The translations under genes and the position numbers were made by a program. Positions 4,301 through 24,120 of a stretch of 24,836 nt of DNA are shown here, piece by piece (the stretch's first letter is position 1; each line of letters starts with the position of its first letter). The notes below the pieces were generated by a model that did no database searches, was not told the DNA's origin, and was given only the letters and a program-made list of their open reading frames with translations. This stretch comes from a virus, in the IMG/VR virus record IMGVR_UViG_3300037562_000025, positions 1-24,836 of that record; one strand, 5' to 3'.

Positions 4301-5206
4301 GGAATAGATCGGCAGCCCGTTTTTGGCCGTTCCGATCTTTTTGATGTCTTCCTTGAGCCGGCGATCGGAAAAGAACGGCGCGGCTGTCGTCGTGTTTGTC
4401 GTGCTGCCCGACAGCGCGCCGGTACCCTCGGCGACATTCGCCGCGAATTGCGCCGTCTGGAACGGATAGGACTGCTGCTGCAAAAACTGATTGTAGAGCG
4501 CGGTCAGGCCGGCCTGCTGCGTGGTCTGCGCCGTCGTGCCCGCTCCCATTTCGGCCTGCGCGCCGGCCAGCCCCGAAGCCTGGGCGTTCGCGCCAATGTT
4601 GGCGATCTGCTGACCACCCGCCTGCTGCCGGGCAAGATTGGCCTGCTGCGCGGAAAGATTAACGCCTTGTTGCTGCTGCGCCGTCGACAATGCGGTGTTG
4701 TAGCCCTGTTGCAGGATCGGAGCCATCGCGTTGCCATAGGCCAGCGACTGCTGCCCGGCGAGGTTGGCCGCCGCCACGCCCGCGCGGTCGCCGCCAAAGG
4801 CGCCGCTTTGTATCGCAGTGCCGAGTTGACCAGATTGCGCGGTCTGGTTCTGCTGGTTCAGCAGGTTCGATTCTTGCTGCGTCACATACGACGTGTACGG
4901 GTTTTCGTATTGGCTGATGTTTTGGCCGGTGAGCGCCGTCGGATTGGCCGCCTGCGAGCCCATGGCCGTCATCATTTCACCGGCCTGCGCCGCCGGCTGC
5001 GCGGCGTTGGCGTACTGCTCCGTGCCCGAGATGGCCGCGTTTTGCGTGCTGTTCAGCGGCGCGACAAAGGCGTTCGGATCGGTCGAGTATTGTTGAAAAG
5101 GCGTGGCTGCGGCTTTCTGCGCCTCCGCTGTAACAGTTTGATACTGCGCCAAAACTTCAGGCGGGATCGTAGTCGTAGAACTGGAAGGAGTAGTTTTACC
5201 TGTCAT
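1328..5206 (-). CDS. Giant internal virion protein with embedded S74 (ICA) domain and lytic transglycosylase domain
   Basis: 1292 residues from the ATG at 5206, which has GGGAGG at 5211-5217; a longer TTG start at 5230 lacks a comparable site. Residues about 1-275 are Ala/Gln-rich and helical. Around 280-347 lies an intramolecular chaperone/peptidase S74 domain, opening with SDRRLKEDIKKIG (S280 and K285 fit the Ser/Lys pair) and continuing with LGFMADEVEKKHPEAVG and VDYDKAVKR. Pro/Ala/Gly-rich linkers follow to about 690. A soluble lytic transglycosylase-like domain spans about 695-830, with catalytic Glu in QESGG (about 714), GAVGIAQVEPGTF and AYNAGPGRVDK. The rest is Ala/Gln-rich. The family pattern suggests a virion enzyme that opens peptidoglycan during DNA entry. 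S74 domains usually sit at the C-terminus of fibres, so the central position is odd. The start overlaps the GIY-YIG gene by 11 bases. Confidence 0.88.
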   Translation of the reverse strand: MTGKTTPSSSTTTIPPEVLAQYQTVTAEAQKAAATPFQQYSTDPNAFVAPLNSTQNAAISGTEQYANAAQPAAQAGEMMTAMGSQAANPTALTGQNISQYENPYTSYVTQQESNLLNQQNQTAQSGQLGTAIQSGAFGGDRAGVAAANLAGQQSLAYGNAMAPILQQGYNTALSTAQQQQGVNLSAQQANLARQQAGGQQIANIGANAQASGLAGAQAEMGAGTTAQTTQQAGLTALYNQFLQQQSYPFQTAQFAANVAEGTGALSGSTTNTTTAAPFFSDRRLKEDIKKIGTAKNGLPIYSFRYKDDPEKITRLGFMADEVEKKHPEAVGLAGGFKTVDYDKAVKRYAGGLVVDSGEREGYDAGGAPTTWGGVANAQAGMYGGSSPSALPYGGKSHVPASTPSQHQMLQPVKPVAVAPQSTLSQLSQLGTEAKGLESLGTAGQRMYNAAKGLAPAGAGAQPPADVSNAPPPPPAPPVAPDPNAPAPGLAAGGAAGGAADSGDPEGLYHPVGGLDIPNENPTAKLQASSTPGAAGPSTISQLAGLGSAASGLSGLGSAASSGLSSLAGVLPFLGLAGGGGVTGRRRRRDNGGGLDPTGGATLDDPNALASAPSFANTPPADAMEPKKGLSPPSAEKFAEKVIDQPVAAEPKAALAAAAPPVAASRAAHGDTSGLYASAPAAAVTSDAPAALAAATKPGGISPAVDALWSRQLSQESGGKQYNADGSLVTSPKGAVGIAQVEPGTFAEMKAKYGIKGDISDPAANEMAGKLYMQEQYAKYGGDMSKALAAYNAGPGRVDKTIAAHGDSYLSFLPSETKGYISNILGGGLAGAGQQLAQNAGRGLAGAGQAISDYAGNAGQAITQAGQQAGGWYEKNKSWLGPLLQGIGTMASSNSRYLGAAALQGLGAGAGAYQKQQESQANVGQTLEGAKQTGARTQGIMLENLQKWTHVGAGGMPYATVTDSKNNKFDIPLAEAQQRIKNGEDLRPVDPNTDLTPRTPGAVQSGQGAPAAPAAPQPGQPAPQPEQAAPHLAPLPVAPMNALGVNFSPDSAKAAQSDNRYDPNQTPLLQAGDKYAADSQSAAAVARETTPYAQKLATTVSDALANKFGDVVGAGGSTRANLINIANTAARLFGYQGAPVGDLDNQEAIINKLDTMRATAAAHGAGQNSLGAFEALRLATPNTNMPPDAMASLTAQLMSDQQKAKDRADHLAQYGQGGAGGYARASARFDTDNGPEKYNRETEALKQMILSPRGPAMLHKLTSGQYSQSQIEEALTKKYGAVPGLSRYFASGG

Positions 5207-6143
5207 CACATCCTCCCAAGTAATCAGCAAAATATACCATGTTACTGATCTTAGCTAGTGCTTTTTCTTTACTGCGGCACTCTTTACAATACAAATGAAT
5301 ACCATCGGGAGACAATTTTCTAGCACCAAACTTAGAACTATCCTTTTGTTGCTTACAGCGAAGGCACGTCCTTAACACGCCAGTCAAAGGAACTGCGCCC
5401 CGCTGGACTGCAGTGCTTACCGCCCTCGTCGCCAATCGTTTGGCAATTCGTTCGGGTGTTTGCGCATCGTGCATGTGCTGCTTCTGTTCTGCAGTGCGCA
5501 AGCGTCCGGTGTTCGCCGCCCGGCGCTTCTCAATTTCTTCAGAAGTGTGTTTGCGACCTAAATTTGAAGCGCGCAATTTTGCCATGCACGCAGCAGATTG
5601 TTTACGGCCCATCGTGGCCTGCGATATTTTTTCACAGTGTTCCGCAGTCCGAACCATAGATTTACTGTGCTGACTGCGTCGAAGATAAGTTTCCAGCGTG
5701 GCGTTTGTAATCGCCGCAGAATGCGCGGCTTTCGCGCGCACTGCGGGGTCATTGCCGCTTATCTTGCTTTTCTGACCAATTTTAGCTTTGTGCTCCGCAG
5801 TCAATTTTGCGCCCAACTTTGCCTTGCGCATCAACGCACGCGTCGATTCGCTTGGATTTGAACCGCCTTCGCCGCCATCAGTCAGGTTAGCAAGCGGCAC
5901 GCCCATGCCGCGCCAGAAAGCAATGCGTTCGATCTCCAGATCGAACGCTTCTTCCTCGGCCAACCCCTCGGCGAATAAGCGCACTTCAACACACATGCCG
6001 AGACAGGCCAGTTTCTTTTGCATGTTGTTGTGGTATCGATTGCGGCTATCCATCACATTCGCACGCCGGCCCGAGCCTTTGCCGACGTAAAAACATGCGT
6101 CGGTATCAGGCCGCCAGTGCTCGTAGATGTAAAAAAGCCCCAT
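5196..6143 (-). CDS. GIY-YIG homing endonuclease with NUMOD3 repeats and C-terminal zinc finger
   Basis: 315 residues from the ATG at 6143, which overlaps the TAA of the acetyltransferase gene (TAATG). The longer frame (start 6194) would only add acetyltransferase coding sequence. Residues 5-23 carry the GIY-YIG core as YIY...FYVGKG, with Arg at 26-27, and the domain ends near 95 in NLTDGGEGG. From about 100 to 240 come several NUMOD3-type DNA-binding repeats of the form AEHKAKIGQKSK. The C-terminus has a CxxC...CxxC zinc finger (TCLRCK and YCKECR). The family makes site-specific DNA breaks that copy the gene into alleles lacking it. The nuclease domain closely matches that of 11447-12079, so the two are paralogues. 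The last 11 bases overlap the next start codon, and its Shine-Dalgarno lies inside this gene's 3' end. The gene looks richer in A+T than its neighbours. Confidence 0.92.
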   Translation of the reverse strand: MGLFYIYEHWRPDTDACFYVGKGSGRRANVMDSRNRYHNNMQKKLACLGMCVEVRLFAEGLAEEEAFDLEIERIAFWRGMGVPLANLTDGGEGGSNPSESTRALMRKAKLGAKLTAEHKAKIGQKSKISGNDPAVRAKAAHSAAITNATLETYLRRSQHSKSMVRTAEHCEKISQATMGRKQSAACMAKLRASNLGRKHTSEEIEKRRAANTGRLRTAEQKQHMHDAQTPERIAKRLATRAVSTAVQRGAVPLTGVLRTCLRCKQQKDSSKFGARKLSPDGIHLYCKECRSKEKALAKISNMVYFADYLGGCDDR

Positions 6144-6631
6144 TACTCCGCTGCTTCTCTTTTTGCGCCCGTGGCCGTGCCGTAAAGCCACCAAGCGCCG
6201 GCTGGGCGCCCAAAATGCCGCTCGTAAAGTTTCACTTTCGCGGTCGCTCGCTCCGAAGATAGTATTCCTATGAGCAAAGGAAGTCCAAGCGCCCGTGACG
6301 CGGCCTTGGCGAACTCGACCAACCGCCCCGCGCGCCCTCCGGGGATCGATCGATACCTGGGATCAACATAGACCATGCGCTCGACCAGCACCGGCTCGGA
6401 ACTGTAGGCCGTGGTGTCCACCCGCAGAATGATCGCCGCCTCGAGCGCGCCTCCGTTCCCGATGACGCCTATGACGCCGTGATCCTGGTGAAGCGAACCC
6501 CAGACCTCGGTCAGGACTTTCTTCATGTCCGGATTGAGCAAGGCGTTCTCGTCCATGCACTTCATGATGAGCGCCATCACTTGGTGGATGTCCTCTGGAG
6601 CGCCGACCCTGACTTTGATTTCCTCAATCAT
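6143..6631 (-). CDS. GNAT-family N-acetyltransferase of phage type
   Basis: 162 residues, overlapping the upstream gene by 8 bases and the GIY-YIG start by one, so it is translationally coupled. The sequence starts IKVRVGAPEDIHQVMALIM, a typical GNAT strand-helix opening. It continues with a central ERMVYVDPRYRSIPGGRAGRLVEFA block that fits motif A: beta strand, R/G-rich acetyl-CoA pyrophosphate loop, helix. It ends with a LYERHFGR helix and WWLYGT strand typical of motif B. Such small acetyltransferases recur among virion genes of podovirus-like phages; the substrate is unknown and could be a virion or host protein. GNAT fold and acetyl-CoA use are family knowledge; the role in this phage is not visible. 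Confidence 0.8.
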   Translation of the reverse strand: MIEEIKVRVGAPEDIHQVMALIMKCMDENALLNPDMKKVLTEVWGSLHQDHGVIGVIGNGGALEAAIILRVDTTAYSSEPVLVERMVYVDPRYRSIPGGRAGRLVEFAKAASRALGLPLLIGILSSERATAKVKLYERHFGRPAGAWWLYGTATGAKREAAE

Positions 6632-7304
6632 GGCGCGGCCCTGGAAGTTTCGACAGTGTTTTGATCAGTTTCTTGCGGTACCGCACAATAAAATCGTCAA
6701 GAACGCGGTGGCCGCGCTCCAAATCTCCATCACCGGCCATGAGCACTTCATCAGGAGTGAGCGTAAACTCGCCGCCAGCCACAACCACGGGCACTTCACT
6801 GGTTTTGCCGCCTTTTGCGCGGCTCCCCGAAAGTTCGGCGCCGTACGGCCCACTTCCAAGACCGTAGGGTGAAGTTCCTTTTGTGCTTGCGCCTTTGTTA
6901 TGCGGATACGGACCGCTAGCCTGTGAATACGGGTTTCCGGCAAACATGCGCTTTATTACTTTAAAACCAGCCATCGTATTGCCGTCACCCATGCCACTTA
7001 CTATGTCGGCGGGTAAAACGAAGCTACCTGAAGGTGTGGCCACCGGAAGGTGATCGGTGCGACCGGCGACGCTGCTGTGAATCGGCCCGGTGTGGATCTT
7101 CTGCGACGGCGCGCCGCTCAGTTGCTGCAACGGCCGCACTCCGGGAACCGACGCCAGTCCCGGCAGCGGACCGCCGCTGTCGCGCGAGGCCCGGCGCGCG
7201 GTGTCGAGAGCAGCAGCCACCGCTTGATCGTGCGGGTGCGTTTTTGACATTTCCCGAATGTTCTGGCCGATCGCGGCCTTTGAAGCTGATTTTATGAGCG
7301 GCAT
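6624..7304 (-). CDS. Conserved phage protein, probably virion-associated, with DUF6496-like N-terminus
   Basis: 226 residues; the ATG follows the preceding TGA by one base. The N-terminus (PLIKSASKAAIGQNIREMSK...DQAVAAALDTARRA) matches a short motif seen at the start of many phage proteins and often labelled DUF6496. After a low-complexity Gly/Ser/Pro section come two conserved-looking blocks: GRTDHLPVATPSGSFVLPAD followed by SGMGDGNTMAG, and VPVVVAGGEFTLTPDEVL followed by GDGDLERGHRVLDDFIVRYRKK. The two blocks resemble each other (hydrophobic strand, G-S/E-F-x-L, then a D/E-V helix and a G-D-G turn) and may be a duplicated unit. I recognise the pattern from phage genomes but know no biochemical role. 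It is co-transcribed with tail and ejection genes. Confidence 0.75.
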   Translation of the reverse strand: MPLIKSASKAAIGQNIREMSKTHPHDQAVAAALDTARRASRDSGGPLPGLASVPGVRPLQQLSGAPSQKIHTGPIHSSVAGRTDHLPVATPSGSFVLPADIVSGMGDGNTMAGFKVIKRMFAGNPYSQASGPYPHNKGASTKGTSPYGLGSGPYGAELSGSRAKGGKTSEVPVVVAGGEFTLTPDEVLMAGDGDLERGHRVLDDFIVRYRKKLIKTLSKLPGPRHD

Positions 7305-7305
7305 G

Positions 7306-7698
7306 TCATTGCGCCCCCGTGGCGGCGCCGGGTGAATAGCTCACCGCGACCACTTGTGCGGCGCCCGGCGCCACGACCAAGCCCAGCCCATAAGGCATGT
7401 TGACCGCGTAGACGCCCACAGCCGCCGGGATGACAAAAAGCGGGTGCGTCAGCACGGCCGCCGACGAGCTGTCATACAGCGTTCCGACAGCGCCCGTTGT
7501 GGTGACGCTGACGTTCGCGACGCGGCCCGGTCCGCTGCTGACCAGGGTGGCGGCGCCGATGCTCTCGATGACTTGCGAACCCGCGATGGCCAGTGCTTGA
7601 CGCGCGGCATTGTTGGTCGCCGTGACGAGGTTCTTGAGCGCTGTCAGGCAATCCGTGAGCGAAGTCGAAGATCCGCCGAAGCCGCTAGTATTTCCCAT
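7306..7698 (-). CDS. Small phage virion-type protein, function unknown
   Basis: 130 residues from the ATG at 7698, chosen because GGGGAG lies 6 bases upstream; the longer frame to 7728 has no such site. It overlaps the end of the nozzle-like gene by 14 bases. The N-terminal third is Ser/Thr/Gly-rich with a helical stretch (LTDCLTALKNLVTATNNAARQAL). The rest is Val/Ala/Gly-rich and beta-strand-like (VANVSVTTTGAVGTLYDS, LFVIPAAVGVYAVNMPYG), the style of small phage tail or decoration proteins. It ends two bases before the next start region. No catalytic motif or signal peptide is visible, and I cannot name a family. Confidence 0.75.
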   Translation of the reverse strand: MGNTSGFGGSSTSLTDCLTALKNLVTATNNAARQALAIAGSQVIESIGAATLVSSGPGRVANVSVTTTGAVGTLYDSSSAAVLTHPLFVIPAAVGVYAVNMPYGLGLVVAPGAAQVVAVSYSPGAATGAQ

Positions 7699-9808
7699 CA
7701 GGCTCTCCCCTGTACCGTATGCCGCCAAGGCGCCAGAACGAGCCGATATCCTGGCTGCCCACTGAAATCTGCATCAAACGGCCCCGGGCGCGCGGAGACA
7801 CAAAAGTGGTCGACGAATTGAACGCGAACGGCCCTATGTTAAAAGGCGCCTGACTTGGGAAGTCCTTGACGCCGATCGTCAGGTTCACCGTCGCATTTTG
7901 GGAGCCGCCAAAATAACCCCATTTCATATCGGGCCAAATTTCGTCAACAAAAATCTTGTCATCGCCATCCGAAAGCGCGGCGTATCCGCTCGAAAATGAC
8001 GACACCATTGCTACGCCATCGGCGTCCGGTGAAATCTCATGCTGATAAATGTAATTATTGATCGGCGAGTAGCCCAGCGGCGGCCCCACCACGCTCTGGT
8101 TGATCCATGCGCTGCGATCAAGGACGCCGTAATCCCACACGCCCAGAATGGTGTTGTATTTTACGTAGCTGGTGGGCTCGCCGCTGCCGCCGATGATTGG
8201 GTAATACCAAGTAACCTCGCCAAAACGCGAATTGGGCGCGCACCTGATTTTTTGCAGATTATTCAAATCCAGGTTCTGGAAAATAACGTCCCATACGGGG
8301 CAATCAAGGACGCTGACGCCGCCGCCTGTCAGAGAAAAGAATTGGCTCTGGCTCATCCAGTAAACATTTTCTCCGAGGACGCAGGCCCCCCGGCGACCAA
8401 TCAAGCCGCAGCCAGCCGCAATTTCGTTGAACGAATACACATACGGTTGACTGATGTATTGCACCGACCACAAGGCCAGATCCGTCCACAGCAACGCCTG
8501 CTGCGACGCCTGTATGCCGCCCACGATCTTGGACCCCCGAGGAATCCTGTAAGAGCCGGCCTGATTCGTGACAGTGGCGACCCAGATGTTGAAGTTCGAT
8601 ATGTCGCACCAACGCACAAGGAGAGGGTCTTGGATGCCGGTGAAAGTCGAACCCCACGCTATGATCTGCCGTTGCGGCATGGCTACGAAAAAACCGTCAT
8701 TAACAGGCGGCGCCTGGGGGATGGCCGCCGCAACCGTGGCGCCCGACGTCGGGTCCCATTGGTAAATTCCAGATACGCCGATGCCGTCGACCACGGCGCC
8801 CGTCGGAGACGCCAGCAGCACGCCGCCCCAGTTGTCCAGGCTCCAGTCGAGCGCTCCTGTTGCGGCGCCTACGTTGACAATCGTTCCTGCGCCGACGCCG
8901 TAGCCACCCGCGCCGTAGCCGCCTTGGCCGTACCCCACCACCACGCCGGTAGGGGCGCCGCCCGCGCTATAGACAAATCGGGCGTTTCCGCCGTTGATGC
9001 TGCCAGTGGCCGTGGTGGTCGCCGTAACCTTCGATACGAACGTAAAGTCATTGGCGTCCGCCACAGCCGTTACAACATAGTTTCCGTAAAAAGTGACGCC
9101 GCCCACTGTTGTAGGGATCAGAATAGGAAACGTACTGCCCACAGAGTAGCCATGGTTGGCCAGCACGACCGTCACATTCGCGGAAGTGGCCGTAGTGGTC
9201 AGGCTTGGTACAGCCGCTGAAGTTGAAGTCGCCGCAGCATAGAGAGGCGCGCCCAATATGTTGACCGCAAGAATGGTATATGTAGTCACGGTAAGGTTCT
9301 GATAAATTGGGTAGACGCCGAATAACACAAGGCCACCGACCGATACTTGATCGGCTATGTAAACAGCATCGTAAGTGCTGATGTTTTGCGACACGGTGTC
9401 AGTTATAGTGACGACTTGGCTGCCTGCCGTCGTGGAAAACACGGGCGCGATATCGGATGACAGAAAAAGCGGCGTGACTAGCTGAAAATTCTGCCCGGTC
9501 GTAATTCCGTTGGCGCCCAGAACAGCCGCCAGGACGCCGAGATACGCATACCCGGATACGCCGGTCTGCATACCGGCGGCCACCCACTCATTAGAGTTCA
9601 GATCTTCCCACGCCAGTAGCTGCCTGACGATAGCCGGCATCTGGCCCGCATAAAACTTGGACCACCCGCCTAGCTTTTCCACGAGGCCAAGCCCGTTTTT
9701 GTCCGGCTTGAATCGTATTAGCTGACTGGTGGACACTCCAGCCGTATTCAAGGCTGGCGTCTCGTTTGTGACGACGCCCGGAGTGACGCGGAATGTCGCA
9801 TGCGGCAT
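7685..9808 (-). CDS. Large tail hub / nozzle-like protein (podovirus tail tube family, tentative)
   Basis: 707 residues, beta-rich throughout. The ATG at 9808 has AAGGA 8 bases upstream and starts 3 bases after the preceding stop. The N-terminus (GVVTNETPALNTAGVSTSQLIRFKP, then EKLGGWSKF) matches the opening of phage proteins that bind the neck and form a propeller-like nozzle, such as T7 gp12 or P22 gp10 analogues. Recognisable segments are AWEDLNSNEWVAAG, WSLDNWGGVLLASP, IYQWDPTSG, VRWCDISNFNIWV, GSKIVGGIQASQQALLWTD and WLGVWDYG-like WDYGVLDRSAW; repeated W-D/N blades suit a beta-propeller. A Thr/Ala-rich insertion (about 190-290) with YGQGGYGAGGYGVGAG repeats interrupts it. Family placement is by pattern; the large size and place after the adaptor gene support it. 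Confidence 0.75.
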   Translation of the reverse strand: MPHATFRVTPGVVTNETPALNTAGVSTSQLIRFKPDKNGLGLVEKLGGWSKFYAGQMPAIVRQLLAWEDLNSNEWVAAGMQTGVSGYAYLGVLAAVLGANGITTGQNFQLVTPLFLSSDIAPVFSTTAGSQVVTITDTVSQNISTYDAVYIADQVSVGGLVLFGVYPIYQNLTVTTYTILAVNILGAPLYAAATSTSAAVPSLTTTATSANVTVVLANHGYSVGSTFPILIPTTVGGVTFYGNYVVTAVADANDFTFVSKVTATTTATGSINGGNARFVYSAGGAPTGVVVGYGQGGYGAGGYGVGAGTIVNVGAATGALDWSLDNWGGVLLASPTGAVVDGIGVSGIYQWDPTSGATVAAAIPQAPPVNDGFFVAMPQRQIIAWGSTFTGIQDPLLVRWCDISNFNIWVATVTNQAGSYRIPRGSKIVGGIQASQQALLWTDLALWSVQYISQPYVYSFNEIAAGCGLIGRRGACVLGENVYWMSQSQFFSLTGGGVSVLDCPVWDVIFQNLDLNNLQKIRCAPNSRFGEVTWYYPIIGGSGEPTSYVKYNTILGVWDYGVLDRSAWINQSVVGPPLGYSPINNYIYQHEISPDADGVAMVSSFSSGYAALSDGDDKIFVDEIWPDMKWGYFGGSQNATVNLTIGVKDFPSQAPFNIGPFAFNSSTTFVSPRARGRLMQISVGSQDIGSFWRLGGIRYRGEPDGKY

Positions 9809-9811
9809 GGG

Positions 9812-10567: not shown

Positions 10568-10938
10568 GGGGGGTACGTCAGCATTGCGGCGTAGGCGGCG
10601 GTCATCTGCGCGCCAGTGAAGCCAAGAGTGGTCTGGATGAAATTGTAAAGCGCATCACCGACAGCCATGCTGTTACCGTGCAGCCATTCGATGTTGACCG
10701 CATTGGCGATATCGGCCGGGCACGCGTTGTCGATCGTGTAAATGTAGGGCGGGAACCCGGTCGCTGCCGCCCATGCGCGGATCTGCTTCTGCGAGGCGCT
10801 GCCGGCGGTAGGCGCGGCAAGCATGGCGATTTGCGAAAGCGATGCGCGCGAGGAAACGCCGGCCTGCACGATCTCGATCAGCTCGACACCAGTCACCGCG
10901 ATCGCTGCTGGAAGGTTCGGGATCTGTTGAACGGCCAT
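10564..10938 (-). CDS. Short phage tail-associated protein, function unknown
   Basis: 124 residues. The ATG overlaps the previous stop (TAATG), and its own stop overlaps the next start (ATGA), so it is coupled on both sides. The N-terminal third, AVQQIPNLPAAIAVTGVELIEIVQAGVSSRASLSQIA, is a small beta module found at the N-terminus of many phage tail-fibre or tail proteins, where it presents a strand pair plus the recurring ELIEIVQ-G-x-S-x-R-A-S motif. The remainder is helical (QIRAWAAATGF, ADIANAVNIEWLHGN, DALYNFIQTTLGFTGAQM). Its place between the zinc-ribbon protein and the adaptor suggests a neck or tail component. I cannot give a specific function. Confidence 0.75.
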   Translation of the reverse strand: MAVQQIPNLPAAIAVTGVELIEIVQAGVSSRASLSQIAMLAAPTAGSASQKQIRAWAAATGFPPYIYTIDNACPADIANAVNIEWLHGNSMAVGDALYNFIQTTLGFTGAQMTAAYAAMLTYPP

Positions 10939-11447
10939 TACGAACTCCCCAAGGGGCCGGTTGCGGGCACAGCGAGGTTTTCAAGAGGCAGCCCTGGATT
11001 CGAATTGCCCGGCGCGTTCGGATCGGTGCCGGGCAACTGATTCGTACCGTGTGGCGGCTCTCCAGTCTGCTGCGTGACGCGGAACTTATCGTCTTGCGTG
11101 ACGCGCAAGACGTCGCCGGGAATTGGAATGCCGGTCCTCGCGTCGACCGTATCCTGGCCCGACGTGGCGCGCGTGTTGCTCTCCGCGACAACAAAATTCT
11201 CAAGCGAAGGCCGATAAATCGGAACTGGATCTGCCGGCAGAATAATGGCCCGAAGTTGCTCCTGCGGAGTATCCAAGCAGCCACGGCACACTAAAATTTG
11301 TTTGTTAACTAGAGAAGCCCCGGCCCAATCGTACTGCCACTGCAAATTGCAGTGGTTATGCCAAATACCGCAACGCATGCACACAGCAAAAGCCCTCGGG
11401 TCCCTAACCGAAGTCCTGGCGCGTCCGGATATTGACGAGTACCCCAT
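10938..11447 (-). CDS. Conserved phage virion-cluster protein with N-terminal zinc ribbon
   Basis: 169 residues from the ATG at 11447; a GTG one codon upstream is also possible. The ATG shares a base with the stop of the upstream homing endonuclease (TGATG). The N-terminal half holds two Cys pairs, CMRC (residues 23-26) and CRGC (54-57), plus His30, His32 and Cys33 between them (CGIWHNHCNLQWQYDWAG). This is a zinc-ribbon-like unit, followed by PQEQLRAIILPADPVPI and a Pro/Asn-rich tail. The pattern F-A-V-C-x-R-C-G...LVC-x-x-C...ILPADPVPI recurs in virion gene clusters of proteobacterial phages, but I know of no experimental function. Likely a small structural or assembly protein. Confidence 0.8.
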   Translation of the reverse strand: MGYSSISGRARTSVRDPRAFAVCMRCGIWHNHCNLQWQYDWAGASLVNKQILVCRGCLDTPQEQLRAIILPADPVPIYRPSLENFVVAESNTRATSGQDTVDARTGIPIPGDVLRVTQDDKFRVTQQTGEPPHGTNQLPGTDPNAPGNSNPGLPLENLAVPATGPLGSS

Positions 11448-12079: not shown

Positions 12080-12087
12080 CTGAACAA

Positions 12088-17361: not shown

Positions 17362-17364
17362 AGC

Positions 17365-17934
17365 TTAATTCCCTGTAAAGGCGATAACATCGGTTGTATT
17401 CGTTCCGATGGCATAAATTGCGTTCAGGTTAGCGACCGCGTAGGAAATCGATTGCCCGGCAACCAAAGGGTACCCATTGGAAGTTGTCACCCCCACTGGA
17501 CCGACGTATGCGGTCCCCGTATTGGAGATCTGAGCCGTGATGACGATGCCGTTGACCAGAGCCTGCGACGGAAGTGCGGCAGCGGCGAGCGTCGAAAGCT
17601 GCTGACCGGAATAAATCGCGGCGAGAGTCGTCGGCAAATTGGTGACGAAGGCGTTGACGCCTTGAACGTTCACCGCGCCCGGCGACGTGCCGTAATTCGG
17701 CGGCGCGCCGAGAGTGGCGCCGGCCAACTGCGTCAGATTGGTCGTGACCGCGCCAAATACGCTGGCGCCGTTGCATAGCTTCCCGGTCACGTCCATCGTT
17801 ATGGGGTAGGTCAGACCGGAATTGTACGTCTGCGGCGGCGTGCCGCAGGACGCCACCACCATGGCCGTCAACACTTGCGCATGCGCGGCGCCGCAGACCA
17901 GCAGCCCAACGAGTAAAGCGAGAAAGCGCTTCAT
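17365..17934 (-). CDS. Exported phage protein with signal peptide, function unknown
   Basis: 189 residues. MKRFLALLVGLLVCGAAHA is a clear Sec signal peptide with a cut after AHA. The mature part is beta-like and Thr/Asn/Gly-rich: a paired-Cys section (ASCGTPPQTYNSG...GKLCNGASV) near the front, ATLGAPPNYGTSPGAVNVQGVNAFVTNLP in the middle, and a C-terminal GVTTSNGYPLVAGQSISY section that resembles surface-layer or appendage subunits. The start ATG lies against the left end of the tnpB element: its present GGAG (17942-17945) lies inside the element, so the transposon supplies this gene's ribosome-binding site. It is the first of three consecutive signal-peptide genes ending with the spike. Confidence 0.8.
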   Translation of the reverse strand: MKRFLALLVGLLVCGAAHAQVLTAMVVASCGTPPQTYNSGLTYPITMDVTGKLCNGASVFGAVTTNLTQLAGATLGAPPNYGTSPGAVNVQGVNAFVTNLPTTLAAIYSGQQLSTLAAAALPSQALVNGIVITAQISNTGTAYVGPVGVTTSNGYPLVAGQSISYAVANLNAIYAIGTNTTDVIAFTGN

Positions 17935-17953
17935 CTATATTCTCCGCGAGAAA

Positions 17954-17973
17954 CCCCGGCATTCATGCCGGGG
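17954..17973 (+). repeat. Left-end hairpin of the tnpB element
   Basis: CCCCGGCAT (17954-17962) pairs perfectly with ATGCCGGGG (17965-17973) across a 2-base centre. This is the subterminal imperfect-palindrome type recognised by Y1 transposases at the ends of IS200/IS605 elements. A second hairpin follows at 17985-18001. Confidence 0.75.
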
Positions 17974-17984
17974 AGGGATAGCGG

Positions 17985-18001
17985 TTCCGGCAGAGCCGGA
18001 A
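17985..18001 (+). repeat. Second left-end hairpin, followed by a pyrimidine/T-rich tract
   Basis: TTCCGGC (17985-17991) pairs perfectly with GCCGGAA (17995-18001) around a 3-base loop, followed by GGCTTTTCTTG. It could be a second transposase-recognition structure or a weak terminator that blocks incoming plus-strand transcription. Confidence 0.55.
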
Positions 18002-18033
18002 GGCTTTTCTTGCGCGAGCGGAGATGAGGGGAT

Positions 18034-18119
18034 ATATTGGCGGGGCGTCGCAGCGTTGGAACCGCCGCAACGCCCCTTGATTGCCCTCCGTTGGAACCGG
18101 AAAAGCAACCCGCCAATAT
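18034..18119 (+). promoter_or_regulatory. Structured tnpB leader with mutually exclusive stems
   Basis: ATATTGGCGGG (18034-18044) is a perfect 11-bp inverted repeat of CCCGCCAATAT (18109-18119), and the second arm runs into the tnpB start codon (18118-18120). The overlapping GGGGCGT (18042-18048) instead pairs with ACGCCCC (18070-18076), with GCGTTG/CAACGC (18053-18058, 18068-18073) as another inner option. The two long pairings share bases 18042-18044, so they compete. GTTGGAACCG is also repeated directly (18055-18064, 18090-18099). The outer stem would hide the start codon; the inner one would release it. No Shine-Dalgarno is obvious immediately before the ATG. Confidence 0.45.
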
Positions 18120-19206
18120 GATCCTCACTTACCGCTTTCGCGTCAAGGACGCATCGAACGGAACCCGCAACGCTCTCCGGGCGCAGGCGCGGGCCGTCAA
18201 TTTCGTTTGGAATTATTGCTGCCAGATTGACCGCGAGGCCCATGCCCGCTGGAAAGCTGGCCGCGTCGCCAAACGTCCGTCCGCGTTCGACCTCGCCAAT
18301 CTGTGCCGGGGCGTGACCAAGGAACTCGGCATCCATTCCGACACGGTTGACGCGGTCTGCCGCAAGTTCGCCGATGCGCGACAAGCCTGTTTTCCCAAGA
18401 CGCCGCGCTTCCGGTCGTACAAGCGTAGCCTCGATTTCGTGCCGTTCTCCAACTTCAAACGCCCGGCTAAACTCGACGGCGAGAGGCTGACCATTCTTGG
18501 TCGCACCTACCGTCTGTGGCTGTCGCGCACGATCCCTGTTGAGGGAAAGCCAAAGACGTTCGAGTTTTCGACCGACGCGCGCGGTCGCTGGTACGTCAAT
18601 ATTCAGGTCGAATTGCCGGACGCTGAGAGGCGTGAAGGGGGCGCTGTCGGCATCGACCTTGGCCTTAAAGACCTCGCCACATTGAGCAACGGCGACAAGA
18701 TCGGTGCGCCCCGCCTTTACCGCGCCAGCGAGAGACAACTGGCGCTGCACCAATCGCGGGGGCAGAAGGTCCGCGCTCGCGCCCTGTCGGCCAAGATCGC
18801 CAATCGGCGCAAGCATTTCCTCCACGTTGAAACGAGCAAGATCGTTCGTGACCACGCGGAGATTTACGTCGGAGACGTGAATGCGTCCGGCCTCAAACGC
18901 ACCAAAATGGCGAAATCCGTTGGTGACGCAGGCTGGTCTATGTTCCGCAACATGCTGTCTTACAAAGCGATTGCGCTTGGCGGCAAATGCGAAATTGTTT
19001 CCGAGCGTTGGACTACGCAAGCCTGCTCGTGCTGCGGCTCTATGAGTAGCATCACAAAACCGAAAGGTATTGGTGGGCTCGCAATAAGATACTGGCAATG
19101 CAGCGACTGCGGAGCGGACCATGATCGGGACGTGAACGCGGCGCAAAACATTCTCCGTATCGGGGCGGAACGTCGCCCTCTTGTTGAAGAAATCCCCGTC
19201 CTTTAG
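18118..19206 (+). CDS. tnpB: TnpB RNA-guided nuclease (rearranged catalytic site type)
   Basis: 362 residues from the ATG at 18118; the frame extends upstream to a TTG at 18037, but family proteins start at MILTYRFRVKDA. The N-terminal recognition region (residues 1-170) includes VNFVWNYC and the FPKTPRFRSYKR motif. RuvC-I: GIDLGLKDLATLSNGD, with Asp180. RuvC-II region: IYVGDVNASGL, where the usual Glu is Gly252, followed by KMAKSVGDAGW. Zinc finger: CSCC (303-306) and CSDC (328-331). RuvC-III: DHDRDVNAAQNIL, with Asp338. Glu296 in VSERWTTQ, just before the zinc finger, is the probable substitute acid, as in TnpB groups with a relocated catalytic glutamate. TnpB cuts DNA matching a guide copied from the element's right flank and helps retain the element. 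The stop codon lies in the right-end hairpin loop. No tnpA nearby. Confidence 0.9.
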   Translation: MILTYRFRVKDASNGTRNALRAQARAVNFVWNYCCQIDREAHARWKAGRVAKRPSAFDLANLCRGVTKELGIHSDTVDAVCRKFADARQACFPKTPRFRSYKRSLDFVPFSNFKRPAKLDGERLTILGRTYRLWLSRTIPVEGKPKTFEFSTDARGRWYVNIQVELPDAERREGGAVGIDLGLKDLATLSNGDKIGAPRLYRASERQLALHQSRGQKVRARALSAKIANRRKHFLHVETSKIVRDHAEIYVGDVNASGLKRTKMAKSVGDAGWSMFRNMLSYKAIALGGKCEIVSERWTTQACSCCGSMSSITKPKGIGGLAIRYWQCSDCGADHDRDVNAAQNILRIGAERRPLVEEIPVL

Positions 19207-19238
19207 GGCGGGGAAGACGTTAATTTTACACCCTTGCT
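19080..19238 (+). ncRNA. Probable omega/right-end RNA of TnpB with guide from the flank
   Basis: TnpB guide RNAs are cut from the 3' part of the tnpB transcript plus the right end, with the guide taken from the sequence beyond the element. The expected structures are here: the GC-rich 3' end of tnpB and a final hairpin, CCCCGTCC (19194-19201)/GGGCGGGG (19206-19213) with loop TTTA and one G-T pair, then GAAGACGTTAA. The guide would begin near 19222 and read TTTTACACCCTTGCTTAG, the end of the gene at 19238-19888. The 5' boundary is a guess based on usual lengths; only the right-end hairpin is directly visible. Confidence 0.45.
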
Positions 19239-19888
19239 TAGTAGCCGGCGTCCGAATATTGCGTCAGAGTAATAGAGATCGAGCCTGTTCCGGAGTTCAG
19301 CAGGATACGCCCCCAGGTCGGCGCGGCCAGCATGTTGGCGGTGCCGCCAACAGCCACCGCGACAAACGGGCTACCCGCGCTGTCCCAGTACATGTTGGCC
19401 GGCGCCACGGGGTTGGTGGGGCTGTTGGGGTCATCCATGGAAAACTGCAACGTAAAATTGACCGTTCCCGTCACTTTCGCCTGAAGACCAAGCTGCGGCG
19501 ACGCCCAACTGTCGGTGCGCGCCCATTGCGAGTAGGCTGTCGTGCCGGTGCCGACCGTCAGGCCGGCGACGGACGCCGCCGAGCTGGCGATGCGGGTGAC
19601 CGTGGCGTAGCTCAGCACCGAAGTGACAGAGCCAATATTGCCGCCCACCAGCGACTCGCTGATCGGGCCGCCCGCCCAATCCGTGCCGAAGATGGTGAAA
19701 GTGGTGTTGGAATTGTTGCCGGTCGAGGCGAGCACGATGTTGCGCGGCGTGTCGAGAACGGCGACGCCTCTGGAATTGACCAGTGCGCCGTTCAGCGTCA
19801 GGTTGCCAGCAGCCGGTGTCTGCGACAACGCGATGGCGGTGGGATTGGCTGCCGCGAGCGGTCCGACAGTGATGGTGATCGGCTGCAT
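19238..19888 (-). CDS. Phage virion-type protein, beta-rich, function unknown
   Basis: 216 residues; the ATG at 19888 has GAGGGG 7 bases upstream, in the segment directly after the intrinsic terminator. The sequence is almost wholly beta-like and small-residue-rich: MQPITITVGPLAAANPTAIA, NLTLNGALVNSRGVAVLDTP, NIVLASTGNNSNTTFTIFGTDWAGG, a VTGTVNFTLQFSMDDPNSP strand, and a closing ISITLTQYSDAGY. This resembles phage sheet-rich virion or decoration proteins. No signal peptide, in contrast with the next three genes. Its stop lies about 16 bases beyond the right edge of the tnpB element, and the element's predicted guide covers its last codons. Family not recognised. Confidence 0.78.
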   Translation of the reverse strand: MQPITITVGPLAAANPTAIALSQTPAAGNLTLNGALVNSRGVAVLDTPRNIVLASTGNNSNTTFTIFGTDWAGGPISESLVGGNIGSVTSVLSYATVTRIASSAASVAGLTVGTGTTAYSQWARTDSWASPQLGLQAKVTGTVNFTLQFSMDDPNSPTNPVAPANMYWDSAGSPFVAVAVGGTANMLAAPTWGRILLNSGTGSISITLTQYSDAGY

Positions 19889-19901
19889 CTAAAAACCCCT
19901 C

Positions 19902-19937
19902 AAAAATAAAGGGGGCGGGGCTCTGCGCCACGCCCCC
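19902..19937 (-). terminator. Intrinsic terminator after the head module
   Basis: On the minus strand, GGGGGCG (19937-19931) pairs with CGCCCCC (19917-19911), extended past one T/C mismatch by GGC/GCC around a 5-base loop. It is followed at once by TTTATTTTT (19910-19902). Strong GC stem plus T-tract is a textbook Rho-independent terminator. It lies between the His-rich gene and the gene starting at 19888, so head genes would be expressed above downstream genes unless read-through occurs. I see no strong promoter between it and 19888. Confidence 0.82.
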
Positions 19938-19961
19938 CCAAGACAGAAAATGTGGGGCGGC

Positions 19962-20366: not shown

Positions 20367-20376
20367 GGGAGACCCC

Positions 20377-20853
20377 TTAACTGTACGACGACGTGATCTG
20401 GACGTACTTGAAGTTGATGGCCGCGACGCCCGCCGTCGTGGGAACACCCGTGGTGACAACCTGCAACTGGACCGCCGCTGGCGTCGGCAGCACCGTCGGC
20501 AAGCCGGTGGCGGCGATGAGGCCATTGATCGCCGCCAGCTGCGCGGCGGTGAAAACAATGGGAATGCGGCCGGCGGCGGCCAGCGTGATCGGACCGGCAT
20601 AGAGCGCGGGCGTCGCCGCCGTGCCGATATTGAGGACCGCGGTCGTGCCGGTGAAAGCGGTCAGCACGTCAACGTCGATCGCGCTGATGATAGAGTCGAG
20701 CGGCAGCCAGAACGTGGTGGCGGTGGCGCCGACCGTCGCGCTCTCGTTCAGCACGATCTGCTGCATCAGGATGGCGAAACCCTGGTTGGGCGTGGGCGTG
20801 CCGGGGCCTTGATCGCCCGACACCACCGGCCCGGTAAAAGTTGTCTGACCCAT
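20377..20853 (-). CDS. Small phage virion-type protein, function unknown
   Basis: 158 residues. The ATG directly follows the HNH gene's TAA (TAAATG), and its GGAGG is embedded in the last codons of that gene. The sequence has a Gly/Pro/Thr-rich arm (GPVVSGDQGPGTPTPNQGF), a short ILMQQIVLNES strand, then beta-rich segments (ATTFWLPLDSIISAIDVDV, TAVLNIGTAATPALYAG, GRIPIVFTAAQLAAINGLI) and a closing FKYVQITSSYS strand. The strand order is similar to small capsid-associated jelly-roll-like proteins, but I cannot name a family. Position just after the major capsid gene (the HNH insertion aside) supports a head or decoration role. Confidence 0.76.
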   Translation of the reverse strand: MGQTTFTGPVVSGDQGPGTPTPNQGFAILMQQIVLNESATVGATATTFWLPLDSIISAIDVDVLTAFTGTTAVLNIGTAATPALYAGPITLAAAGRIPIVFTAAQLAAINGLIAATGLPTVLPTPAAVQLQVVTTGVPTTAGVAAINFKYVQITSSYS

Positions 20854-21546
20854 TTATGCGGCCTCCGGTGAAAATGGTGCGAACGGCGGAACTTCCGCGT
20901 GCTTGTCAAGGTACCGGATAGCGGCTCGAAAAGTATCTTGGCTGTCTTCCATGCCGCCAAGCGCGGAGTTGCACTTATAGCACAGCAGTCCGCGCACCCT
21001 ACCCGTTTTGTGATCGTGGTCAACATGAAGCGCCACGGGCTTGCCGTTGTTACCCGTCCGAATTTCGGGCTTCTCGCAAATGGCGCACACGTAATTCTGC
21101 GCGTGCAGCATCCGAGAATACTCTTCCAGCGACAGATCGTAGTTCCGCTGCAAACCGTACAACGCCACAACATGGGGCTTCATGCGACGGTCAGGCAGAT
21201 TTCCGTTGCTGTCTCCCGACGAGTAGTCGCCCAAGCGCATGTTGTCGAGCCGCAAATTAAGCCCGTCGCCATCGGCAAAGAGAATATTGTACTTCGGCCA
21301 CTCACCATAGGTCAGCAGCCACGCGACCCGCGCCGCAGTCATGGCTTGCGCCCGATACGTGATGTACCGATACTGCTTGATGGCGCCATCGCGAGAGGCG
21401 GTGTGAACCCCTTTGATAGAACCAGCTTCGTCTCCCGGACGGATGCCGCGTCCTGCGTGGATCTTCCACGTAAGACGCCCCGTCTGTGGGTCGTAATCAA
21501 AAGCGGCGCACAAATCGTCGTAGCTCAAATTGCACTCTTTAGCCAT
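20854..21546 (-). CDS. HNH-type homing endonuclease with endonuclease VII-like C-terminal domain
   Basis: 230 residues from the ATG at 21546, which has AAGGAG 8 bases upstream; the longer frame to 21609 lacks one. Residues 12-107 follow the homing HNH_3 layout (FDYDPQTGRLTWK, AGSIKG, QYRYITYRA, VAWLLTYGEWP, DNMRLGD), but the usual His of AHRxAW is Ala and the DHxNGD core reads FADGDG, so this nuclease site looks dead. Residues 135-215 are an intact recombination-endonuclease-VII-like domain: CAIC (154-157), HVDHDHKTGRVRGLLC (174-189) and CYKC (189-192), with four zinc-binding Cys. The family cuts DNA; here probably to spread between phage alleles. It splits the junction between the capsid gene and 20377-20853. 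Its last codons (SPEAA) supply the next gene's GGAGG. Confidence 0.88.
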   Translation of the reverse strand: MAKECNLSYDDLCAAFDYDPQTGRLTWKIHAGRGIRPGDEAGSIKGVHTASRDGAIKQYRYITYRAQAMTAARVAWLLTYGEWPKYNILFADGDGLNLRLDNMRLGDYSSGDSNGNLPDRRMKPHVVALYGLQRNYDLSLEEYSRMLHAQNYVCAICEKPEIRTGNNGKPVALHVDHDHKTGRVRGLLCYKCNSALGGMEDSQDTFRAAIRYLDKHAEVPPFAPFSPEAA

Positions 21547-21557
21547 AGCCGTATCTC

Positions 21558-21574
21558 CTTCGCGGTCAGCGAAG
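21558..21574 (-). promoter_or_regulatory. RNA hairpin overlapping the HNH gene's ribosome-binding site
   Basis: On the minus strand, CTTCGC (21574-21569) pairs perfectly with GCGAAG (21563-21558) around TGACC. The 3' arm covers the first half of the AAGGAG site (21560-21555) of the HNH gene. Folding would dampen translation until melted. Hairpins over ribosome-binding sites are known in phage T4 homing endonuclease genes; here it is inferred from sequence alone. Confidence 0.45.
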
Positions 21575-21576
21575 TC

Positions 21577-21604
21577 AACATAACAGACTTTGAGAGTAGC
21601 GCAA
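21577..21604 (-). promoter_or_regulatory. Candidate extended -10 promoter for the HNH endonuclease
   Basis: Minus-strand TG-T-TATGTT (21585-21577) is an extended -10, with a weak -35-like TTGCGC (21604-21599) 16 bases upstream. It lies 31 bases before the HNH ATG, in the 137-base spacer downstream of the capsid gene. Such an internal promoter would allow the endonuclease to be expressed separately from the late operon. Confidence 0.3.
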
Positions 21605-21664
21605 GCCACTTTGTGCGTATCCTTCTAAAAACTATCCACACCCTTTGATGAAGCTAAACAAGCA

Positions 21665-21685
21665 AACTGAAGCATATCTTCAGTT
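21665..21685 (-). terminator. Hairpin at the end of the major capsid gene (weak terminator or mRNA stabiliser)
   Basis: AACTGAAG and CTTCAGTT form a perfect 8-bp stem around a 5-base loop, overlapping the capsid stop codon. On the minus strand it is followed by TGCTTGTTT, only loosely T-rich, and the stem is AT-rich. This may stabilise the capsid mRNA or cause partial termination rather than act as a strong terminator. Confidence 0.45.
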
Positions 21686-22598
21686 AACTCGTGGGGGTGT
21701 TAACAAAGATACTTCTCCAGTTATAGTAGGCGAACGAGTATCTTTCATAACCTTTAACCAATAGGTTATCCGTCACGAAGTCTACTTGCATATCCGTCTC
21801 GAACTTGATGCGCTCCATGTAGGAGAGCCCGTCGATGTTGGTCAGCAGGAACCACGCGAAGGCCGAAGTCAGGAAGTCATTGACCATGTAGCCTTCCGGC
21901 AAGCCGCCGGCAGTGGTGAGGATCGCATTCACATCGTTGTCGGCGGTGCCGGGCCGCAGCTCGGTCTTGGTGAGCCGGATGGCGACCGGCTCAAGCTGCG
22001 GCGGCACGATCAGCTTGCGGGCGCGGGCGAACACTTTCAAGCCGGCCTGATCGCGGAAGTTGGTGCGAACGGCGATCATGCTGTTCAGCAGCGTGGCCTC
22101 GTTGAGATCCACCTGGACGGCGGGCGTGTTGGCGACAACGCCGCTGTCGATCGGGTGCAGCGTGGACGACAAGGGCTGCCCGTCGCCGCCGATCGCCGAA
22201 TTGTAAACGGTGGCGGTGTTCAGGATGTTGGCGCCGTAGATTTCCTTGGTCTGCTGGAAAGCTTCGATCAAGCCGAGGTTGGATGGGTGGAACTGGGTCT
22301 TGTAAAGATTGTCGTCGATAGCCTTACGCGTCATCGCGTAGCCCAGGCCGATTTCCGTATGCTCCTGGTTATAGACGTAGCGTTCGCCGGCGCCATTGTC
22401 GAAGGAGGTCTGACCGCCTTCGGTCTTTAGCTGCGCAAGCCCCAGGAAGCGCATTTCAGCAGTGCGTTCTAGGGCAAGCTTGGAATTGTGTTTCGTAAAG
22501 ATACGGTCGTATTGCGACGGTATCATCTCGTATTTGCCCTCTATTCCCCTAAGACCAGGCAAGAGCAAATCTTTGATTGAACTTAGGTTGACCGCCAT
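21684..22598 (-). CDS. Major capsid protein (Mu gpT-like / HK97-fold)
   Basis: 304 residues; the ATG has AGGAGA about 6 bases upstream. The order of features fits a gpT-like HK97-fold coat protein: PSQYDRIFTKHNSK after a short N-arm, EMRFLGLAQLKTEGGQTSFD, YVYNQEHTEIGLGYAMTRKAIDDNLY (the long spine-like helix region), an alpha-rich LIEAFQQTKEIYGANILNTATVYN block, GDGQPLSSTLHPIDSG, a conserved LIVPPQLEPVAIRLTKTEL loop in the A-domain, then AWFLLTNIDGLSYMERIKFE and the closing KGYERYSFAYYNWRSIFV. It contains no cysteine. Product forms the procapsid shell. No separate scaffold or protease is visible in the window. The upstream neighbour is separated by a foreign plus-strand endonuclease gene. Confidence 0.85.
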   Translation of the reverse strand: MAVNLSSIKDLLLPGLRGIEGKYEMIPSQYDRIFTKHNSKLALERTAEMRFLGLAQLKTEGGQTSFDNGAGERYVYNQEHTEIGLGYAMTRKAIDDNLYKTQFHPSNLGLIEAFQQTKEIYGANILNTATVYNSAIGGDGQPLSSTLHPIDSGVVANTPAVQVDLNEATLLNSMIAVRTNFRDQAGLKVFARARKLIVPPQLEPVAIRLTKTELRPGTADNDVNAILTTAGGLPEGYMVNDFLTSAFAWFLLTNIDGLSYMERIKFETDMQVDFVTDNLLVKGYERYSFAYYNWRSIFVNTPTS

Positions 22599-22625
22599 TT
22601 TACTCTCCTGTAGCTAGGCGAATAC

Positions 22626-22643
22626 TTACGCGCGGGAGCGTAA
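22626..22643. repeat. Short hairpin in the capsid mRNA leader
   Basis: TTACGC (22626-22631) and GCGTAA (22638-22643) pair perfectly around 6 bases, in the 145-base stretch between the capsid ATG (22598) and the plus-strand endonuclease start (22744). The rest of that stretch shows no convincing promoter; a capsid ribosome-binding site lies at its left end. Confidence 0.3.
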
Positions 22644-22743
22644 AGATGGCCCGATGGTTAAATATACTTTGCAACACGAAAAGAGGCTTGTAAGGGTTGT
22701 CTTCGCGTGTTACAGATGCAGCCCCACAAAGAGAGTCCGCAAA

Positions 22744-24120
22744 ATGAGAAAACCTGTCGGATACTGGACCTTCGAACTTTGCAAAGCCGAAGCAGCCAAG
22801 CACGCGACGCAGAAAGCATGGCTCCGCAGCCCCGGCGGTTCTTTCGCAGCTGCGCGCCGGCAGGGCTGGACGCGTGAGTGTTGTGAGCACATGACCGCTA
22901 CGCCAAGCGGCTACTGGACCCTGGAACGCTGCAAAGAGAGTGCGGCTCAGTTTGCTACGCGTTACGCGTGGGTGAAGGGAGGCAACGTCGCTTACCAAAT
23001 TGCGCACGGGCGCGGCTGGCTCGACGAATGCTGCGGCCACATGGTTTACTTGCAAGCTACCCCGCACTCGCGGACCACCGCCGATCTGAACGCTACGGCG
23101 CAGAAGTTCAAGACACGCGTGGACTGGCGAGACGCCGATCCGAAGACCTACCAGTACGCGCAACGCACCGGCCGCATAGACGAATTTTGTGGCCACATGC
23201 CTGTGCGAGCTTGCAGCATCGCGCAAAAAAATTTTGCGCAGCGCGTCCGCAGCGTTGCGCCTAGCGGCGTTGAAGTCCGAGAGGAGGTCGCGGGGCTTCT
23301 TACCAACAAACGCGAGACCCTCGATATTGTCGCTTGCCGAAACGGGGTTCCGTTCTTTGCTGTCGAGTACTGCGGAATCTACTGGCATAACGAAAACAAC
23401 ACGCCCCAGCGGCTGTGCAATGGCGTTAGCGTTCCGCAACCAATGCATCACGAGCGCCGACGCCTGGAATGCGCCGCCAGAGACATCCGTCTGGTCCACC
23501 TCTGGGAAGATGTTGCCGATGACCCGCGCCAATTTAGCACTATCCAAAATGCGCTCGGCTGCGAACGCCCTGCGATCCGCGCTAGCAAATGTACGCTCCG
23601 CGAAATAACTAACGCTGAGGCCGCCACGTTTCTTAACGCCAACCACCCGCAGGGATGGGCCTTCGCCAACGTGAACTTCGGTCTTTTCCACCCCGGCCGC
23701 CTCGTAGCGGTCATGAGTTTCAAAAAGTCTGGCGACCGCCACACCGGCGCAGGGCTCTACGACTGGGCGCTCCACCGCTTCGCTACCGATATAAATTTGC
23801 GCGTCCACGGCGCGGCTTCCAAACTGTTTGCCATGCGGCCCGCCGGGCGTATCGTTAGCTATTGCGACCTTGATCTTTTTACCGGGGGCGTCTACGCCGC
23901 GCTGGGTTTCGATCTGGTCCGCATAAATGAGCCCCGCTACTCCTGGACGAAGAGTGAGAAGCGAATCCCGCTGTACCGTGCGCAGAAGCATCTGCTGCCA
24001 AAGCTGCTGGGCAGCGATTTCCGTGCGGACGAATCCGAGGCCGAAAACATGCGCCGCTGCGGATGGTCCAAGCTGTGGCATACGGGGTTGGCGGTTTACG
24101 CCCACCCCGGCAGCTCTTAG
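22744..24120 (+). CDS. Vsr-like (EDxHD-type) phage homing endonuclease with three N-terminal repeat modules
   Basis: 458 residues from the ATG at 22744 (GAGAG 8 bases upstream); an earlier ATG at 22654 would add 30 residues before the first repeat. Three modules of about 44 residues occupy 7-50, 57-100 and 113-152, each of the form GYWT-x-E-x-C-x-x-x-A...GW-x-x-E/D-CC-x-HM, probably DNA-binding. Residues about 165-265 carry the nuclease core: TLDIVACRNGVPFFAVEYCGIYWHNE (Asp194, Glu208, His215), HHERRRLECAARDIRLVHLWED (Asp256). Residues 290-455 are the accessory C-terminal domain common in this family (NHPQGWAFANVNFGLF, VMSFKKSG, HGAASKLF, YCDLDLFTGGVYAALGF). Family knowledge: Vsr-fold homing endonucleases of large phages cut specific phage genes. 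The gene runs opposite to both capsid genes beside it and ends 27 bases before the next stop. Confidence 0.86.
   Translation: MRKPVGYWTFELCKAEAAKHATQKAWLRSPGGSFAAARRQGWTRECCEHMTATPSGYWTLERCKESAAQFATRYAWVKGGNVAYQIAHGRGWLDECCGHMVYLQATPHSRTTADLNATAQKFKTRVDWRDADPKTYQYAQRTGRIDEFCGHMPVRACSIAQKNFAQRVRSVAPSGVEVREEVAGLLTNKRETLDIVACRNGVPFFAVEYCGIYWHNENNTPQRLCNGVSVPQPMHHERRRLECAARDIRLVHLWEDVADDPRQFSTIQNALGCERPAIRASKCTLREITNAEAATFLNANHPQGWAFANVNFGLFHPGRLVAVMSFKKSGDRHTGAGLYDWALHRFATDINLRVHGAASKLFAMRPAGRIVSYCDLDLFTGGVYAALGFDLVRINEPRYSWTKSEKRIPLYRAQKHLLPKLLGSDFRADESEAENMRRCGWSKLWHTGLAVYAHPGSS

Follow-up and report, generated by a model that had tools for sequence, protein, structure and literature searches.

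The virion operon of an uncultured tailed phage carries nuclease genes at five of its junctions. With a probability that we put at roughly 0.8, these are five separate entries, four of free-standing homing endonuclease genes and one of a TnpB element, which are independent of one another and are turning over.

Nuclease genes of the virion operon

The window, that is, the whole stretch of DNA that was analysed, is an IMG/VR viral record of 24,836 bases with its virion genes on the minus strand. Along that strand the order runs from the gene at 24148-24768 through the major capsid gene at 21684-22598 and lysis genes at ~13.2-14.3 kb to the gene at 1328-5206. A near-identity search of phage records with the window gave no match. 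Related contigs, given below as L-numbered loci, were retrieved with the capsid protein and a 707-aa protein as queries; several loci are pieces of one contig, and locus counts are therefore not independent. The features and gene labels are as follows.

24148-24768, minus strand: virion gene g1
22654-24120, plus strand: Vsr-like homing endonuclease gene, with three N-terminal repeats
21684-22598, minus strand: major capsid gene, core 94% identical to L003, both ends exchanged with the flanking nucleases
20854-21609, minus strand: Endo VII/HNH-type endonuclease gene, immediately downstream of the major capsid gene
20377-20853, minus strand: virion gene g3
19238-19888, minus strand: virion gene g4
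19224-19243, plus strand: predicted guide, the first 20 nt past the right end of the TnpB element, found behind TCAT in empty alleles
17935-19223, plus strand: TnpB element without TnpA, 1289 bp, right end GTTAA
18037-19206, plus strand: tnpB open reading frame with RuvC site (homologues start at ATG 18118)
17931-17934, plus strand: TAM/target TCAT, whose complement is the ATG(A) start of g5
17365-17934, minus strand: virion gene g5
12088-12786, minus strand: virion gene g12
12085-12285 (~200 bp): end of g12 exchanged with GIY-2, 62-66% identical to L082/L085 against 84-92% in the rest of the gene
11447-12079, minus strand: GIY-2, a GIY-YIG/NUMOD3 homing endonuclease gene between g12 and g13
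10938-11450, minus strand: virion gene g13
6143-6631, minus strand: virion gene g19
5196-6194, minus strand: GIY-1, the ORF of a GIY-YIG/NUMOD3-type homing endonuclease gene between g19 and g20, start probably ATG 6143
1328-5206, minus strand: g20, encoding a 1292-aa transglycosylase/S74 protein at the far end of the virion gene series

Within 19 kb the window has a pair of GIY-YIG genes, an Endo VII/HNH gene, a Vsr-like gene and a TnpB element. Both GIY-YIG genes and the Endo VII gene are on the minus strand; TnpB and the Vsr-like gene are on the plus strand, opposite to the virion genes. The first-pass annotation had placed all five at virion junctions, and this was borne out: all the ORFs are present, the adjoining virion ORFs are intact and none of the nucleases (0/5) lies inside a virion gene. 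Its count of four families plus TnpB needs amending, as there are four families in all (GIY-YIG twice, HNH/Endo VII, Vsr-like and TnpB/RuvC), TnpB being one of them. With the same profiles and queries, 1.73 Mb of related loci yielded ~28 such nucleases; ~0.4 would be expected per 24.8 kb and five were seen, an excess with a rough Poisson P of 6e-5 for loci that are not independent.

The four homing-type genes have a homing-family nuclease domain with the catalytic residues kept. GIY-1 matched phrog_314 (homing endonuclease) at 2e-14, GIY-2 matched phrog_314 at 4e-13 and NUMOD3 at 6e-8, and the GIY-YIG catalytic residues Y5/Y7, Y19, R27, E70 and N86 are invariant. The Endo VII gene matched Endonuclease_7 at 1e-23; its DHDH..CN motif aligns with T4 Endo VII (1e7d) and its catalytic residues look intact, while its N-terminal HNH_3-like half appears from the sequence to be without the usual His and may only bind DNA. 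The Vsr-like gene matched phrog_3339 (homing endonuclease) at 3e-50, and its family assignment, drawn from PHROG families and visible motifs, is the weakest of the four. Searches of solved structures gave no match with the Vsr-like protein and no meaningful match with GIY-1, and the structure models of the two (mean pLDDT 49 and 62, respectively) were too uncertain for a fold search. The C-terminal part of the Vsr-like protein (~residues 308-436) has a weak Mom-like DNA modification match (phrog_1384, 0.0015), an odd partner for a homing enzyme.

Some non-nuclease gene content also differs in relatives elsewhere in the operon. The gene at 6624-7304 (downstream of 7306-7728) and its homologues in L091, L100, L101 and L102 share a conserved N-terminus and have quite different middle parts, longer in the relatives; by eye, one of these is methyltransferase-like and one ParB-type-domain-like. 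At ~17099-17112 the window is without ~170 bp that L002, L003 and L085 have between the genes 16507-17361 and 17365-17934, and the alignment pieces overlap there by 14 bp. In L085 (5560-7562), ~1 kb of different gene content, including a 265-aa ORF not in the window, lies between a lysis gene and its neighbour.

Empty alleles, replaced alleles and exchange tracts

Empty alleles of all five nuclease junctions (5/5) were found in related phages. In a survey of neighbouring gene pairs, the g1-capsid junction (Vsr-like site) was empty in 74 of 84 loci, the g12-g13 junction (GIY-2 site) in 43 of 47 and the g4-g5 junction (TnpB site) in 6/6 relatives, and ~20 short gaps were seen at g19-g20 (GIY-1 site). 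Empty alleles of the Vsr-like site have gaps of 7-51 bp in L010, L012, L024 and L066. L084 joins the g19 and g20 sides with 11 bp between them, the inserted segment in the window being 5207-6144, and 36 bp remain at the GIY-2 site in L082 and L085. MW202675, a complete record with a capsid 86% identical, shows neither a Vsr-like nor an Endo VII gene next to its capsid gene; directly behind its tail adaptor gene it has an "intron associated endonuclease". The sites of the four homing-type genes are intergenic, with conserved empty alleles and no gene broken. The presence of the genes in all relatives, or inactive nuclease domains, which the first-pass annotation had named as counting against mobility, were not found.

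Across the relatives, the same or other nucleases occupy about ten virion junctions. GIY genes occur at g19-g20 in L257, L258, L265, L266 and L268, at g12-g13 in L039, L041 and L247, and elsewhere at g15-g16 in L024 and g16-g17 in L102. Vsr-like genes adjoin the capsid gene in L003, L004, L008, L162, L163, L166 and L167; HNH nucleases lie at g1-capsid in L071 and at g13-g14 in L082, and an Endo VII gene at g18-g19 in L154. Relics are present as well, of a GIY gene in L047 and of a TnpB end in L085. The L047 relic (16160-16366), 69 aa of a GIY-YIG protein at the GIY-2 junction, looks like what is left of a homing gene after decay.

The window is near identical to L003 to either side of the Vsr-like gene (capsid 91-97%, g1 95-99%), whereas for most of the gene itself identity to L003 is only 51-77%. 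With L163 and L008 the picture is reversed: the nuclease gene is 91-99% identical and the flanks 71-86%. The switch points lie at ~22,520, 80 bp inside the capsid gene, and at ~23,990, inside the nuclease gene, and bound a tract of ~1.47 kb; the last ~120 bp of the Vsr-like ORF are L003-like and the protein is a chimera. Since this tract was swapped within a near-identical background, it records the replacement of one allele by another.

In the window the Endo VII gene is 59-82% identical to that of L003, though its flanks match far more closely, and the exchange took the capsid gene's last 71 bp with it. Compared with L003, these last 71 bp (21684-21754) are 72% identical and the first 80 bp of the capsid gene (22519-22598) 81%. 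The end/core divergence ratios are 3.3 for the capsid start, 4.9 for the capsid end and 3.1 for the g12 end, against 5-95% ranges of 0.47-1.48, 0.62-2.27 and 0.70-1.35, respectively, in other pairs, which are mostly more divergent and make these ranges a guide and not a strict test. The gene ends beside GIY-2, Endo VII and Vsr have diverged 3-5 times more than the cores, outside these ranges, which we count in favour of homing. Conversion together with the flanks (co-conversion) is seen for Vsr, Endo VII and GIY-2 and not for GIY-1, whose flanks are clean, and the exchange tracts end within 0-200 bp of each cassette.

Candidate ribosome-binding sites lie at the cassette ends: gggagg in the GIY-1 end ahead of the g20 start, ggagg in the Endo VII gene end ahead of the g3 start, and a Shine-Dalgarno-like aagg inside the GIY-2 cassette, whose stop overlaps the g13 start (TGATG). 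The aggag of the capsid gene is within the exchanged gap. In the sequence, none of the five breaks a gene where it lies, and four cassettes carry the ribosome-binding site of the next virion gene in their own end; an insertion of this kind would be expected to cost the phage almost nothing. When a carrier and a phage with an empty or different allele infect the same cell, the nuclease would cut the other genome, and the break would be repaired from the carrier, copying the cassette with the 0-200 bp of flank observed in the tracts. Each of the five elements would act on its own; they would turn over, displace one another at a shared junction and decay. Taken together, the empty alleles, the swapped nucleases, the Vsr replacement and the relics form the pattern that competing elements would leave, and the earlier description of these genes as selfish and mobile is supported.

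The TnpB element and start codons

The ends of the TnpB element were defined by comparison with L274, L272 and bacterial copies, in which the left end directly follows TCAT and the right end reads GA(C/T)GT(C/T)AA. Hairpins lie at 17954-17973 (left) and 19194-19213 (right), and the complement of 17942-17945, in the left end, gives a GGAG Shine-Dalgarno at a suitable spacing for g5. The protein matched a Cas12f1-like TNB profile at 8e-21 and phrog_506 at 4e-72; its catalytic residues are D207, an alternative E323 six residues before CxxC, and D363/D365. The element has the characters of the IS200/IS605 type: a TnpB with RuvC D-E-D, the glutamate in the alternative position, and a zinc ribbon; defined ends with subterminal hairpins; and insertion 3' of a short motif with no target duplication. 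A TnpA Y1 transposase is absent from the element, whose tnpB start is separated from the left end by only 183 bp. Elements with TnpB alone form a known subgroup, and the window element is filed there, as one moved in trans or by homing. An Rfam search assigned no RNA family and no known omega-RNA family.

Empty sites were found in L085/L170 and L002/L003, with presence and absence exact to the base and clean flanks. The site in L085 reads CTTCAT followed by TTTTACACCC, and in the window 1289 bp lie between the two halves. The predicted guide, derived from the right flank, matches the empty site beside the motif at 20/20 positions in L085 and 19/20 in L002 and L003. In the favoured reading the element works as an RNA-guided homing device, with TCAT as TAM and the joined empty site as target, the match being observed and cleavage presumed. 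TCAT stands before the left end in the window, L274, L272, the L085 relic and bacterial copies, and the exact empty site is that of L085. L274, a viral contig, has an 89% identical element with tnpB frameshifted. A single-sequence query found no TnpB relatives on contigs; an alignment query did. The L085 relic (9205-9245, ~window 10567) consists of 31 bp of the element's left end plus a hairpin; it follows TCAT and abuts a virion start codon, at a site that is vacant in the window, L082 and L083.

TCAT is the reverse complement of ATGA, and most copies in Burkholderiales and other phages lie immediately 5' to a start codon. Of 29 resolved copies, 16 have a TAM whose ATG resembles a gene start, opening a frame of at least 40 codons that shows a coding signal at third positions and has little upstream; among the remaining ATGA sites of those loci the figure is 80 of 866 (odds ratio 12, P = 2e-9). 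When frame length was tested in a simpler way, 14/29 stood against 17% (P = 1e-4), and in a second set, mostly from few genomes with many copies, 21 of 33 sites against 26% (P = 3e-5); the site sets overlap partly and the search patterns contain TCAT. In the second set the products of many downstream genes start in the manner of pilins, signal peptides or an ABC transporter. Part of the enrichment would be expected if insertions within genes are selected against, and the counts do not prove that starts are actively targeted. On the gene strand, typical left ends read TCGGAGCAAATCTG followed by ATGA, with the GGAG core 8 nt from the ATG.

Three Burkholderia copies (63-66% identical) have a TCAT left end of this type, whereas none was found for six plasmid and phage TnpB relatives at a greater distance (38-50% identical); the habit of sitting at start codons may be confined to a subclade of TnpB. 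We lean towards a subclade specialised on start codons, which would take TCAT as target, insert directly 5' of the start codon and replace the displaced Shine-Dalgarno with its left end. Crowded operons, those for phage virions among them, could then be entered at little cost, and the element would home by RNA guidance into the empty alleles of relatives. The openly accessible literature yielded no paper on start-codon insertion by IS605/TnpB elements, which does not exclude that one exists.

Competing explanations and known systems

The first-pass annotation had also suggested that the nucleases together drive the virion region, and this part did not hold up. Cuts at several junctions could move the whole virion block as a homing-endonuclease island: the capsid gene and most of the operon lie between nucleases, and islands of >10 kb were proposed in other phages (PMC10448857). 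However, the high identity to L163 and L008 is confined to ~22520-23990 and does not extend across the capsid gene, which has kept its own history (94% to L003) between Endo VII and Vsr while both nuclease neighbours changed. The tracts reach only 0-200 bp beyond the cassettes and no nuclease-bounded block of virion genes was seen to travel; exchange tracts this short argue against joint transport, which we regard as quite improbable. Assignment to the homing-endonuclease islands was rejected, as the relatives fetched hold no long shared block bounded by nucleases and the shared tract around Vsr is ~1.47 kb. It is unlikely, too, that the nuclease genes are passive accessories spread without homing by ordinary mosaic exchange. 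Phage recombination at gene junctions is general and nuclease cutting is here presumed, but the genes inserted at these five junctions are nucleases only, with catalytic residues kept, and alleles were replaced at fixed sites with short tracts.

A fixed function of at least one nuclease, above all Endo VII, in DNA resolution, packaging or the exclusion of rivals would fit the Endo VII genes directly behind the capsid gene in 15 of the 69 loci with enough sequence, some only 33-45% identical. Such a gene is absent there in the other 54, however, and all five nucleases have empty alleles, so we hold this to be the least probable explanation; a benefit in rivalry between phages would be compatible with homing. 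Weighing against five independent entries are GIY-1 and TnpB, which show presence/absence only and no exchange tract, the lack of a donor for GIY-1, GIY-2 and the window's Endo VII allele among the relatives compared, and a TnpB element without its own transposase.

In T4, free-standing homing genes lie by essential phage genes, replace one another and carry signals inside their cassettes (PMC2988022). The window nucleases resemble T4 seg (GIY-YIG) and mob (HNH) in their intergenic position beside essential genes, their expression signals for the next gene and their allele replacement, and some are antisense beside the capsid gene, as segD is (PMC2988022). Unlike seg and mob, the window adds Vsr-like, Endo VII-type and TnpB genes in one virion operon, and the T4 enzymes have been assayed whereas those of the window are known from sequence alone. 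As in the homing endonuclease gene neighbourhoods and islands of ICP1 and other phages (PMC10448857), several nuclease classes lie near capsid, terminase or other essential genes, but the window is without a long shared block between nucleases; Vsr, EDxHD and TnpB are unmentioned in that text. The Endo VII gene shares its catalytic motif and its nature as a mobile phage nuclease gene with F-CphI, an Endo VII-type DHHRN homing endonuclease of cyanophage S-PM2 (PMC6083498), from which it differs by the extra N-terminal HNH_3-like part and by no intron having been found on a shallow look.

The TnpB element is like the IS200/IS605 element ISDra2 in its hairpin ends, the lack of target duplication, a TnpB with RuvC and zinc ribbon, and a predicted flank-derived guide matching the empty site beside the left-end motif, a target that the ISDra2 work predicts (PMC8612924). 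It is unlike ISDra2 in being without TnpA, in using TCAT and not TTGAT, in its alternative RuvC glutamate, and in that most elements of its type lie immediately before a start codon and have a Shine-Dalgarno in their left end. Salmonella phage LPSTLL (MN737551) also has a TnpB-family gene between a head-morphogenesis gene and lysis genes, though only 38.5% identical to that of the window.

The biology of free-standing homing endonucleases is already known from T4 and ICP1, and is here unusually dense and mixed. What is new, to judge from the open literature, is how dense and mixed the nucleases are, the availability of matched empty alleles together with short exchange tracts, and the habit of this TnpB subclade of sitting at start codons. 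Independent selfish nucleases of four kinds are visible moving, swapping and decaying in one virion operon, and the matched empty alleles suit direct cleavage tests. The capsid and tail sequence dragged along is bounded here at 0-200 bp, a limit relevant to whether homing has a part in how virions evolve. The TnpB element offers a testable answer to how a transposon may live in a genome with almost no spare DNA: it would land at a start codon and bring the ribosome-binding site along.
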